Shown piece by piece: positions 1-59,206 of a stretch of 64,000 bases of DNA. Position numbers and translations under genes: made by a program. Origin of the DNA: Desulfobotulus alkaliphilus (GTDB lineage: Bacteria > Desulfobacterota > Desulfobacteria > Desulfobacterales > ASO4-4); contig NZ_VLLC01000015.1 of assembly GCF_007830435.1 (NCBI RefSeq), positions 1 through 64,000 of the forward strand, read 5' to 3'. The notes under the pieces are model-generated. The model had not been told where the DNA came from and made no database searches. It was given only the letters and a program-made list of their open reading frames with translations. The number at the start of each line of letters is the position of its first letter. Position 1 is the stretch's first letter.

Positions 1-87
1 TGCAAATAGCCACGGAGCCTTGCAACAGTACGAAGCTGCTGCAATTACAGCATTGGCAGTTCGAAATAAATTGTGCTGAATAATTAT
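1..87 (-). mobile_element. Family A non-coding element, copy A1 (partial at window edge)
   Basis: The sequence matches the left arm of family A (full copies at 34291-34636 and 58860-59206) in reverse orientation and ends with the terminal inverted repeat, reading GTGCTGAATAATTAT at 73-87. The other half lies outside the window, so its central cassette and target duplication cannot be read. It sits 12 bp from the 3' end of the lipoprotein gene at 100-654. Confidence 0.85.
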
Positions 88-16853: not shown

Positions 16854-18656
16854 TTAACCGCCGAATCCGGCATCTTCCATGGCAACGGCAGCACCGTCCA
16901 TGACCTGAATGGCGGTGAGCCTGCCTGCGGTGATGGGGAGCTGGGTGTTGATGAAGAAACGGGCCGTGGTTACCTGGCCGTTATAGAAGGCATCGTCTTT
17001 TTTCTTCTGCCCGATTTTGGGAGCAGCGATGGCAGCCCTCCACAGAAGCATCCATGCCATGCAGAGATCACCGGTGGACTCCAGGAAAGGATGGCTGAAG
17101 GCAAAGGCATCCAGCACCTTGTCACTGCCTGCGGCCTTGCCCAGAATGGCAGCGGTTTCAGTATAGGTGTTGAAGAGTTTTTCAAGGTTTTCAGCCAAAG
17201 GTTTTACGGCTTCAATTCCTTTGGCCATGTCAATGGTTTTACGGATTTCCTCAAGGAAGGCCATGAAGGCAGCGCCTTTTTTCATGCCCATTTTACGGCC
17301 AATGAGGTCAATGGACTGGATGCCGTTGGTTCCTTCGTAAATCTGGAAAATACGGCAGTCACGTAGAAGCTGGGCCACAGGATACTCTTCGATGTAACCA
17401 TAGCCGCCATAGACCTGTACGCCGTGGGAGCATACTTCAAAGGCCTTGTCTGTGATGTATCCTTTGATGATGGGGGTGAGGACTTCCTCAAGGTTGCGGA
17501 GACGCTCTTTTTCTTCGGGGCTGTCGCTGAGCTTGTGCCTGTCCTGTACCATGCCGTTGAAATAGATCAGGCTGCGCATACCATCCACCATGCTCTTCAT
17601 GATCATGAGCTGCCGACGTACATCCGGGTGGCGTATAATGGCAGCAGGGCCTGCTTCCGGAGGATCGGTCATGTGCTTGGTCTGTATGCGCTGACGGGCA
17701 TAATCCAGGGCATACATATAGGAGGCCGTGGCATTGGCAAAACCCTGAAGGCCCACCATCTGACGGGCTTCGTTCATCATCTGGAACATGGCAGCCATGC
17801 CCTTGTTTTCTTCACCGATGAGGGTGCCGATGCATTCACCCTTGCCGCCCAGGGTGAGGGAACAGGTAGCATTGCCGTGAAGGCCCATTTTATGCTCAAT
17901 CCCGGTACAGACCACGTCGTTGAATTCTCCCGGACTGCCATCCGGTTTGATGCGGTATTTGGGTACAAGGAAAAGGGAAATACCGCGGGTGCCAGCGGGA
18001 GCGCCTTCGATGCGGGCAAGGGTGGGGTGAATGATGTTTTCCACCATGTCCTGCTCGCCACCGGAGATGAAGATTTTGGAGCCGGTGATGGAATAGGTGC
18101 CATCGGGATTACGCTTGGCTACGGATGTCAGGGCACCAACATCGGAACCGGCTTCGGGTTCCGTAAGAAGCATGGTACCGGCCCACTTGCCCGAATACAT
18201 GTTTTTAAGAACCTGATCCTTCTGCTCCTTTGTACCGAAGCTTTCCACAAGCCTGGCTGCACCGTGGGTCAGCATGTTAAAAAGCATAAAGGAGTTGCAG
18301 GCACCATAAAAATATTCATTGGCAGCAAGGCCCACGGAGGTGGGCATTCCCTGACCTCCCCACTCGGGAGAGTCACTCATGGCCAACCACTGACCATCAC
18401 AATAGGTTTTGTAGACTTTATGGTAAGGTTCAGGAACTTTGACTTCGCCTGCATCGAATACACAGCCGGGGCTGTCACTGATTTTCTGCAGGGGAAGAAT
18501 TTCTTTGATGGCCAGATTCCTGGCCTCTGTGATAATGAGATCAACGGTTTTTCGGTTAAATTCAGAAAAGCGATCATTTTTTGCAAGTTCTGCAACTTCA
18601 AACTGCTCATGGAGAACAAAATCTACATCGCGGCGGTCGGCAATCAGTTGGGCCAT
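16854..18656 (-). CDS. Acyl-CoA dehydrogenase with extended C-terminal domain
   Basis: 600 residues, longer than a classic 380-residue acyl-CoA dehydrogenase. It has the N-terminal, middle and C-terminal ACAD domains plus an about 130-residue extra C-terminal domain of the type seen in DmdC-like and many deltaproteobacterial enzymes. Visible signatures are the middle-domain TEPEAGSDVGAL flavin/substrate motif and FQIYEGTNGIQ, which carries the probable catalytic Glu near residue 440. It oxidises an acyl-CoA to the enoyl-CoA with FAD. A strong AAAGGAG precedes the ATG. It follows the CoA-transferase gene on the same strand after 309 bp. Chain-length specificity cannot be read. Confidence 0.92.
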   Translation of the reverse strand: MAQLIADRRDVDFVLHEQFEVAELAKNDRFSEFNRKTVDLIITEARNLAIKEILPLQKISDSPGCVFDAGEVKVPEPYHKVYKTYCDGQWLAMSDSPEWGGQGMPTSVGLAANEYFYGACNSFMLFNMLTHGAARLVESFGTKEQKDQVLKNMYSGKWAGTMLLTEPEAGSDVGALTSVAKRNPDGTYSITGSKIFISGGEQDMVENIIHPTLARIEGAPAGTRGISLFLVPKYRIKPDGSPGEFNDVVCTGIEHKMGLHGNATCSLTLGGKGECIGTLIGEENKGMAAMFQMMNEARQMVGLQGFANATASYMYALDYARQRIQTKHMTDPPEAGPAAIIRHPDVRRQLMIMKSMVDGMRSLIYFNGMVQDRHKLSDSPEEKERLRNLEEVLTPIIKGYITDKAFEVCSHGVQVYGGYGYIEEYPVAQLLRDCRIFQIYEGTNGIQSIDLIGRKMGMKKGAAFMAFLEEIRKTIDMAKGIEAVKPLAENLEKLFNTYTETAAILGKAAGSDKVLDAFAFSHPFLESTGDLCMAWMLLWRAAIAAPKIGQKKKDDAFYNGQVTTARFFINTQLPITAGRLTAIQVMDGAAVAMEDAGFGG

Positions 18657-24650: not shown

Positions 24651-24667
24651 AGCATCCTTTATTTTTT

Positions 24668-24890
24668 CTGATTACCACTGTCTTTCAGCCATATAAACCT
24701 TAATCATGGAAATTATAAGATCAGATTTTACGCATGTTAGCGGGCACCCGTAAAGGGTGCCCCTACACAAAACAGGGCCGTAAAATCCATTCGTAGGGGC
24801 AGGCCTTGCGCCTGCCCGTATTAAAGCCCGCACCATGGGCCTGACAACAACCGGACCAGCAGGCTGTGGCTGAGTCAGGGTAGTAATCAG
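24668..24890 (-). mobile_element. Family B non-coding element, copy B1
   Basis: 223 bp, the reverse orientation of copies B2 and B3, bounded by CTGATTAC (24668-24675) and GTAATCAG (24883-24890). Inside are two palindromes typical of this family: GGGCACCC/GGGTGCCC around 24743-24764 and a GGGGCAGGCC...GCCTGCCC hairpin around 24796-24818. The flanks share only a T-run, so the target duplication has decayed. Any reading frame across it is a by-product of the palindromes. Confidence 0.85.
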
Positions 24891-24986
24891 ATGGTTTTTT
24901 ATCTTTAAGTTTTTATGACGGTTTCTGACAACCGTCTTTTGCAGGCTCTGACCCATAACCCCAATGCATCAAAAAGGACGCATCCC

Positions 24987-29903: not shown

Positions 29904-30094
29904 GAAAATATTCAGCATGGTTTATTCCGAACTGCCAATGCTGTAGTTGCAGCAGCTTCGTGCTGTTGCAAGGCACCTTGGCTATTTGCAAGTGACATTG
30001 CAATCGTTTCGGATTGCGTCACGGGCAAATAGTCTGGGTGCCTGTGCATCTATCTGACAGGTATGGTACCAGAATAATTGTTCTGAATTATTAC
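29904..30094 (+). mobile_element. Family A non-coding element, copy A2 (no central cassette)
   Basis: 191 bp. Both arms of family A are present (CCAATGCTGTAGTTGCAGCA on the left, CAGGTATGGTACC on the right), but the core reads CGTTTCGGATTGCGTCACG without the hairpin cassette found in A3, A4 and A5, so it shows the empty core. The ends are diverged (GAAAATATTCAGCA, GAATTATTAC), and no 8-bp target duplication is left, because element B2 is inserted 5 bp to the right. Confidence 0.85.
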
Positions 30095-30099
30095 TTTTT

Positions 30100-30322
30100 C
30101 TGATTACTACCCTGGCTCAGCCACAGCTTGCTGGTCAAGTTTTTGCCAGGCCTATGGTGCGGGCTTTAATACGGGCAGGCGCAAGGCCTGCCCCTACGAA
30201 TGGTTTTTACGGCCCTGTTTTGTGTAGGGGCACCCTTTACGGGTGCCCGCTGACATGCACAAAATCTGGTTATAAAATTTCTATTATTAAGGCTTGTATG
30301 GCTGAAAGACAGTGGTAATCAG
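30100..30322 (+). mobile_element. Family B non-coding element, copy B2
   Basis: 223 bp from CTGATTAC to GTAATCAG, flanked by a perfect 10-bp direct repeat ATTACTTTTT (30090-30099 and 30323-30332), a target-site duplication. The left duplication overlaps the right end of element A2, so B2 inserted after A2. Contains the GGGCAGGC/GCCTGCCC and GGGCACCC/GGGTGCCC palindromes of the family. Confidence 0.9.
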
Positions 30323-30338
30323 ATTACTTTTTATTCAC

Positions 30339-34263: not shown

Positions 34264-34290
34264 GTCCGTTCATCCTTCCTTATCTTTTTT

Positions 34291-34636
34291 GTAATTATTC
34301 AGCACAGCTTATTCCAAACTGCCAATGCTGTAGTTACAGCAGCTTCGTACTGTTGCAAGGCTCCGTGGCTATTTGCAAGTGACATTGCAATCGTTTCGGA
34401 TCAAAGCTTTGCAGGCCTGTGCGAAAGAAGCGGCAAACTGTCTGAGCCGCCACAAAGGCAGCGTACCAAGGCATGCCATGGTAATAAAAAGCTTATCCTG
34501 CCTGTGGCGGCGAGTTTTTGCCGCTTCCGCACAGGGCAAGAAGCTTCCGAATAAGATTGCGTCACGAGCAAATAGCCTGGGGCCTGTGCATCTGTCTTGC
34601 AGGTATGATACTTGGAAACCCGTGCTGAACAGTTAC
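34291..34636 (+). mobile_element. Family A non-coding element, copy A3 (hairpin cassette type 1)
   Basis: 346 bp from GTAATTATTCAGCACAG to the inverted end CGTGCTGAACAGTTAC, flanked by a perfect 8-bp duplication TCTTTTTT (34283-34290, 34637-34644). Between the arms, about 34401-34554, is a cassette able to fold into a long hairpin: GCCTGTGCGAAAGAAGCGGC (34415-34434) pairs with the region around GCCGCTTCCGCACAGGG (34520-34536). The same cassette occurs in A5, and A2 lacks it. No coding capacity is evident. Confidence 0.92.
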
Positions 34637-34698
34637 TCTTTTTTTAAAAAAGCATACCTTGCTCCGGTGCATAAGGATATGGCGTAAAGTAAAGGTCT

Positions 34699-40837: not shown

Positions 40838-40883
40838 TTCAATAAGAACCCTTGAGTTTTTTCAGAGTCCATGACAGAAACGT

Positions 40884-41050
40884 TGCGTTCAGGGTGCGCT
40901 TTGCGCTTCATAGGGAATCCCGTGAAAATCGGGAACGGGCCCACCGCTGTAACCGGGGATGTTTTTTATAAAAGTGTCACTGTCCTTGAAAAGGATGGGA
41001 AGGCCATTAAAAAACAGATGATCCGGAAAGTCAGAAGACCTGCCCTGAAA
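40884..41050 (+). promoter_or_regulatory. Cobalamin riboswitch
   Basis: All core blocks of the B12 riboswitch appear in order: the AGGGTGCGC start (40891-40899), TAGGGAATCCCGTG (40911-40924), CGGGAACGGGCCCACCGCTG (40930-40949, the B12-box region), AGTGTCACTG (40973-40982), GGGAAGGCC (40997-41005) and AGTCAGAAGACCTGCC (41029-41044). It lies 240 bp upstream of btuF and would shut the uptake operon when B12 is plentiful. Confidence 0.95.
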
Positions 41051-41069
41051 GCTTTTTCCCCGACCTCTT

Positions 41070-50403: not shown

Positions 50404-50577
50404 TCCGCTAAGTCCTGTTTTCGGGTTAGGGGCACAAAATGGTGTGACGGGCCTGGGAACAGCCATGAAAAAGTGGCATAGTCCCAAGATTCCTTTTTTG
50501 TCAAATACAGATTTGACCTGGTGGCTTTTCATAGATGGTAATGGGGAAAAAAACAGTGTTTTTTAAGTGCTTAAAAC

Positions 50578-50838
50578 GTAACTGTTTAGCACAGCTTTCC
50601 AAGTACCATACCTGCAAGGCAGATGCACAGGCCCCAGGCTATTTGCCCGTGACGCAATCCGGCACTCAAGCTTTCAAAAGCCCATTGTTTTCATTGCAGG
50701 CTTTAGATTTATGGCTTGAGTGCCGGAATCCGAAACGATTGCAATGTCCCTTGCAAATAGCCACGGAGCCTTGCAACAGTACGAAGCTGCGGCAATTACA
50801 GCATTGGCAGTTCGGAATAAACTGTGCTGAATAATTAC
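50578..50838 (-). mobile_element. Family A non-coding element, copy A4 (hairpin cassette type 2)
   Basis: 261 bp in reverse orientation, with ends GTAACTGTTTAGCACAG and CTGTGCTGAATAATTAC, flanked by a perfect 8-bp duplication CTTAAAAC (50570-50577, 50839-50846). The arms match A3 and A5, but the central cassette (about 50657-50728) is unrelated: CCGGCACTCAAGC (50659-50671) pairs perfectly with GCTTGAGTGCCGG (50714-50726). On its complement the sequence CGGATT stands on both sides of the cassette, while A2 has it once. Confidence 0.92.
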
Positions 50839-50846
50839 CTTAAAAC

Positions 50847-53167: not shown

Positions 53168-53193
53168 CTTTGCCTCCGGTCATAAAAGGTTAT

Positions 53194-53417
53194 CTGATTA
53201 CTACCCTGACTCAGCCACAGCTTGCTGGTCCGGTTGTTGTCAGGCCTATGGTGCGAGCTTTAATACGGGCAGGCGCAAGGCCTGCCCCTACGAATGGTTT
53301 TTACGGCCCTGTTTTGTGTAGGGGCACCCTTTACGGGTGCTAAGCTAACATGCGTAAAATCTGATCTTATAATTTCCATGATTAAGGTTTGTATGGCTGA
53401 AAGACAGTGGTAATCAG
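53194..53417 (+). mobile_element. Family B non-coding element, copy B3
   Basis: 224 bp from CTGATTAC to GTAATCAG with a perfect 10-bp target duplication AAAAGGTTAT (53184-53193, 53418-53427). The right copy of the duplication touches the stop codon of the coiled-coil gene ending at 53427. The interior matches B2 closely except near GGGTGCTAAGC, where one palindrome arm is altered. Confidence 0.92.
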
Positions 53418-53426
53418 AAAAGGTTA

Positions 53427-58859: not shown

Positions 58860-59206
58860 GTAACTGTTCAGCACAGTTTATTCCGAACTGCCAATGCTGT
58901 AGTTGCAGCAGCTTCGTACTGTTGCAAGGCTCCGTGGCTATTTGCAAGTGACATTGCAATCGTTTCGGATCAGAGCTTTGCAGGCCTGTGCAAAAGAAGC
59001 GGAAAACTGTCTGAGCCGCCACAAAGGCAGCGTGCTTAAGTCTGCCATGGTAATCAAAAAGCTTATCCTGCCTGTGGCGGCGAGTTTTTGCCGCTTCCGC
59101 ACAGGGCAAAAAGTTCCCGAATAAGATTGCGTCACGGGCAAATAGCCTGGGGCCTGTGCATCTGTCTTGCAGGTATGGTACCTGGAAAACTGTGCTGAAT
59201 AATTAC
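58860..59206 (+). mobile_element. Family A non-coding element, copy A5 (hairpin cassette type 1)
   Basis: 347 bp, nearly identical to A3 in arms and in the hairpin cassette (about 58971-59124). Ends are GTAACTGTTCAGCACAG and CTGTGCTGAATAATTAC. The 8-bp direct repeat CTGCCTGA occurs at 58845-58852 and 59207-59214; the right copy abuts the element, while seven extra bases (TTATTTT) separate the left copy from GTAAC. The TGA of the left copy is the stop codon of the kinase gene. Confidence 0.9.

Follow-up and report, generated by a model that had tools for sequence, protein, structure and literature searches.

In a 64,000-nucleotide stretch of Desulfobotulus alkaliphilus DNA (the window, C16:1-64000), a non-coding sequence of 346 bp lies between two copies of the same 8-bp word, raising the questions of what moved it there and what its interior represents. 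The earlier note on this DNA placed it in a repeat family, family A, and took the family for small non-autonomous relatives of IS66. The present analysis points, with a probability of about 0.78, to a non-autonomous element (MITE) mobilised in trans by an IS66-superfamily transposase, with a captured, older modular hairpin as its body. Bacterial MITEs are usually regarded as decayed insertion sequences, and a recent review on MITEs in prokaryotes makes no mention of IS66. The interior of family A, overlooked in the earlier reading, is by contrast a conserved, swappable and covarying hairpin that is distributed far more widely than family A as a whole.

Family A copies in the window

All five family A copies previously described in the window (A1-A5), with their shared terminal inverted repeats (TIRs), are present where they had been placed. 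A3 as a whole occupies 34291-34636 and has TCTTTTTT on each side, the left copy of this 8-bp target duplication lying at 34283-34290 and the right one at 34637-34644; neither is assigned a strand. On the plus strand, A3 comprises a left arm with the terminal sequence GTAATTATTCAGCACAG (34291-34401), core B, a long imperfect hairpin which other copies lack or replace (34402-34554), and a right arm whose terminus, read inward, is GTAACTGTTCAGCACGG (34555-34636). An apex motif has its 5' half, CAAACTGTCTGAG, at 34434-34446 and its 3' half, GAGTTTTTG, at 34512-34520, again on the plus strand. A4 (50578-50838, minus strand) has arms of the A3 type, but core B is replaced by core C, a TCCGGCACTCAAG..CTTGAGTGCCG hairpin at about 50660-50727. 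It is bounded by CTTAAAAC at 50570-50577 and 50839-50846 (no strand assigned), so that both of the perfect 8-bp repeats reported earlier are confirmed. A5 (58860-59206, plus strand) is full length, with core B and clean GTAA ends, and carries no duplication. A2 (29904-30094, plus strand) is a short form with no core, a decayed left end, GAAAATATTCAGCATGG, and no duplication. A1 (1-87, minus strand) consists of the left arm alone: base 1 of contig C16 is also the first base of the window, and the copy is cut off there.

Two other features of the window may be recorded here. A second intergenic repeat family of ~229 bp, of the form TCTGATTACCACTGTC..GGTAGTAATCAGA and 91-96% identical between copies, is found at 24664-24892, 30096-30323 and 53190-53421, the middle copy adjoining A2 at 30096. 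A cobalamin riboswitch lies at 40875-41061 (Rfam RF00174, 109 bits).

Copy number and insertion

In the 4.0-Mb genome the TIR pattern, with up to 2 mismatches allowed, occurs at 386 sites and its reversed control at 2; the family A TIR is therefore not a product of chance. With A3 as query, the genome yielded 40 matches of ~340 bp at 92-100% identity, and there were 284 first-look candidates. The DNA read for the copy analysis, namely contig C2 in its entirety (358,559 bp) together with numerous stretches elsewhere, contains 86 copies with both arms paired. Family A elements range from 183 to 480 bp, and 25 paired copies lie on the 358 kb of C2.

That the element inserts as a unit is borne out by the target duplications. 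Perfect 8-bp duplications flank 36 of the 65 copies with intact ends, where re-paired flanks would give 0.64; at least 7 of 8 bp agree in 49 of the 65 (1.25 expected), so that most of these copies carry duplications when their flanking 8-mers are tabulated, as the earlier note proposed. Exact duplications of 5, 6, 7, 9 or 10 bp were absent among these 65 copies. Family A inserts with an 8-bp target duplication. The duplicated targets are 75% AT, against 49% for contig C2. For the 31 copies on C2 and C16, a crude ORF call places 28 in intergenic DNA and 13 between convergent genes, where about 5-6 would be expected, an excess of about twofold; no strand bias was seen on these contigs.

Comparison of orthologous stretches revealed insertions common to this genome (G000) and that of a sister species (G002), for example one with the duplication CAGATCTT in both, and many insertions therefore predate the species split. 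No carriage of family A on plasmids was found. The element has the features of a MITE: TIRs with a fixed-length target duplication, small size, many copies and, as the earlier note had it, no transposase gene of its own. It is a real, high-copy, non-coding transposable element, present as a few hundred short, gene-less copies in this genome.

A modular hairpin body

Between its constant arms, family A carries core B, core C, both or no core. Copies with no core measure 183-191 bp, those with core B about 346 bp, those with core C about 261-273 bp, those with B and C on one side 413 bp and those with C-B-C 461-480 bp, some of these size classes including assembly gaps (N) within the hairpin. 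On C2, core C (the CCGGCACTCAAG hairpin) is confined to family A and its diverged relatives, apart from a weak exception at 17919. Folded in full, the element forms a single long hairpin (z -11.2). The same core is also found within diverged arms which keep GTAA ends (C2:71384, 79208, 136075 and 205861), and solo core hairpins without GTAA ends are present as well, some of them orthologously placed in different species. Ends and body thus differ in their history: the hairpin exists without these ends, and its apex recurs across phyla. In the mechanism proposed, the core would be an older structured element, captured and amplified by IS66-type ends in this genus, the constant arms now carrying core B, core C, their combination or neither. 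Separate histories make it possible to test whether selection on a mobile element can act on a structured RNA or single-stranded DNA itself, and whether short GTAAC termini are used in trans by IS66-type transposases.

Covariation across the order

A covariance model built from sequences of the genus found matches in 18 of the 389 genomes of the order, falling in families f1, f14, f35, f41 and f59; no Rfam family was matched. Outside the genus the outer stems are unrelated, whilst the apex AACGGCAAACTGTYTGAGG..GAGTTTTTGCCGTT is kept. In 34 sequences from the five families, in an alignment fitted to the structure (and with homology in f35 proven by apex sequence only), two-sided changes are seen at 49 of 53 pairs, and 91.6% of pair cells hold standard pairs, against 61% after shuffling and 36-46% after sliding. 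One stem compared by hand reads AAGCGGC/GCCGCTT, AATCGCC/GGCGATT, AATCGGC/GCCGATT and AACTGGC/GCCAGTT. G-U wobbles outnumber A-C mismatches by 71 to 26 overall, and by 8 to 2 when counted per assembly, a difference which is suggestive only (p 0.055).

Because pairing rather than sequence is conserved, and G-U wobbles slightly outnumber A-C ones, these data suggest that a folded single strand has been kept by selection, probably as RNA. The fitting of the alignment to the structure and the marginal per-assembly excess both count against this part of the main reading. Template switching can correct long near-perfect palindromes, and quasi-palindrome correction of this kind, acting at replication, could mimic compensatory change with no RNA involved. 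Such correction, or else recognition of a cruciform or of single-stranded DNA, would make the covariation a DNA effect rather than the outcome of selection on RNA, an account which the weakness of the G-U bias favours and to which we give not far short of even odds. It is less easily reconciled with the internal-loop sequences CAAACTGTYTGAG/GAGTTTTTG and GCGTTAAR/TTCAGC, which are unpaired and persist while the stems change, or with the finding that, in 12 of 13 subfamilies, RNA of the apex-bearing strand is more stable than that of its complement.

The candidate transposase

GTAA termini and 8-bp duplications, two features related to IS66, are both found in family A. The IS66 of Frankia has ends beginning GTAA and 8-bp direct repeats (PMC11946415), and both are seen in the order to which this genome belongs. 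The genome contains one IS66-type transposase gene (PF03050, 67.5 bits; the NCBIfam IS66 model scores below its cut-off), an intact ORF of 533 aa on contig C66. The insertion sequence that carries it (G000:C66:2927-4832) has 25-bp perfect ends, GTAACTTCTCAATAAGTGTAGGCAT, of the terminal form GTAACTTCTCAATAAGTG. It has no target duplication itself, a point against the proposed reading. By protein search, homologues of the transposase are present in 43 of the 389 genomes of the order; for at least nine homologues, the ends are of the GTAACTTCTCAA type and perfect 8-bp duplications adjoin them. The resident insertion sequence adjoins an Rhs-like gene.

Standard family A ends and IS66-type ends have only the bases GTAACT..TCA in common. 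In four family A copies, however, an alternative right end has taken the place of the usual one, with perfect 8-bp duplications directly beyond it: those on C13 (405 bp, duplication AGAATAAT), C3 (394 bp, ATCAGATA, terminus GTAACTTCAAAAG), C45 (405 bp, AAAAGATA) and C9 (448 bp, GAAAATCT). Three of the four read GTAACTTCTGAGTAACTT (also written GTAACTTCTGAGTAAC), and are identical to the end of the resident insertion sequence at 14 of 18 bases. The constant part of family A ends is thus the outer GTAAC only, and mobilisation in trans by an IS66-type enzyme accounts best for the data. Family A would then be moved by a DDE transposase of the IS66 superfamily which recognises very short GTAAC termini, generates 8-bp duplications and inserts the element mostly into AT-rich intergenic DNA. 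In the C9 copy (G000:C9:18400-18910), the 58-bp alternative end module is tandemly duplicated at the right end.

No insertion sequence with family A's exact GTAACTGTTCAGCAC ends was found, and no PF03050 gene is detectable in the draft assemblies of the sister species G001 and G002, which have 28 and 164 TIR sites, respectively. Both results weigh against the IS66 reading and would suit an enzyme from some other, unrecognised transposase family, which the genus has since lost and whose GTAA ends and 8-bp duplications resemble those of IS66 by coincidence; a copy in another family (G079) likewise has GTAAC ends, with flanks AAATTTTT/AAACTTTT. We regard a lost transposase as unlikely, given the match between the resident IS66-type ends and the alternative family A ends and their identical duplication length.

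The IS66-type reading, to which we return, upholds the earlier note as to GTAA ends, 8-bp duplications and mobility, and supplies one IS66-type gene with ends similar to three of the four alternative ones. It departs from the note over descent. Searched against the genome, the DNA of the resident insertion sequence matches its own ends and a 27-bp flank only, so family A does not appear to be a shrunken IS66 relative, and as judged from this comparison its interior would set it outside the class of IS66-derived MITEs. Its origin as a deletion derivative of the resident insertion sequence was rejected, there being no internal match. A 2.3-kb TIR pair in G002, considered as an autonomous partner, proved to be a small element on each side of a uroporphyrin-III methyltransferase/synthase-like gene, the two being separate.

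Comparison with known elements

Family A is like the IS66 family in its GTAA-starting ends and 8-bp direct repeats, but it lacks a transposase, its interior does not resemble the resident insertion sequence and its TIR diverges beyond GTAACT. The BOX elements of Streptococcus are small modular hairpins with variable inner modules; in S. suis, different end modules surround one inner module, and the TIRs are weakly similar to a resident insertion sequence (PMC3049150). Family A shares this modularity, but its IS66-like ends are flanked by perfect 8-bp duplications and its core covaries across families. ERIC and Correia elements are, like family A, intergenic, high-copy, long imperfect palindromes, and are regarded as MITEs (PMC10969869). 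Their ends and sequence are unlike those of family A, and a non-exhaustive literature search found no report of a cross-phylum apex motif in them.

REP/BIME sequences with their RAYT transposases are also high-copy intergenic hairpins, whereas family A has TIRs and duplications and no association with Y1_Tnp genes. HuH enzymes are not known to make 8-bp duplications. That family A consists of REP-like hairpins copied by a RAYT (Y1 HuH) transposase, with incidental GTAA ends, is highly improbable and was rejected, for although Y1_Tnp genes occur in 10 of 10 hairpin-bearing genomes tested and some TnpA-REP genes are flanked by atypical hairpins (PMC6006769), neither the hairpin nor the apex motif is present in the examined flanks of 30 Y1_Tnp genes. 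An integron attC identity was judged unlikely from attC anatomy and dropped, the conserved motif lying at the apex and the copies being dispersed single units.

The apex motif across phyla

The apex pattern CAAACTGTYTGAG-N5-30-GAGTTTTTG is found in 7 of the 395 genomes of the phylum, with up to 21 copies each, and the control gave 0 matches. It occurs in at least 120 stretches of GTDB r220, whilst by our calculation about 1-2 would be expected by chance in the whole collection. The motif, CAAACTGTYTGAG-N-GAGTTTTTG, is found in Desulfobacterota, Bacteroidota, Firmicutes and Gracilibacteria, many of the named records being Desulfobacterota; the records that carry it include Desulfobacterales, Desulfuromonadales, Bacteroides, Adhaeribacter, Agathobacter, Syntrophomonadaceae and Ca. 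Gracilibacteria, among which the named MAGs may be mis-binned. The arms on either side of the apex are complementary at 47 of 63 loci; among 600 mismatched pairs, 9 are. A literature search on the apex sequence found nothing relevant, and in IMG/VR the motifs showed no viral carriage.

A broader reading, which we hold only tentatively and think less likely than not, is that the apex hairpin, CAAACTGTYTGAG-stem-CGAGTTTTTG, represents a structured selfish element so far unrecognised, probably RNA, which is shared by distant phyla and spreads through capture between the ends of different transposons, family A being its IS66-type vehicle in this genus.

In Bacteroidota and Desulfobulbus (L271, L283, L286 and L265), a TTTCTTTTGNTTCTTTTTCTTTG..CAAAGAAAAAGAA inverted repeat lies downstream of the apex hairpin, and the two are perhaps part of a larger element. 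In an Agathobacter MAG (L246, L249, L289 and L290), inverted-repeat arms of ~250 nt per side enclose the apex motif.
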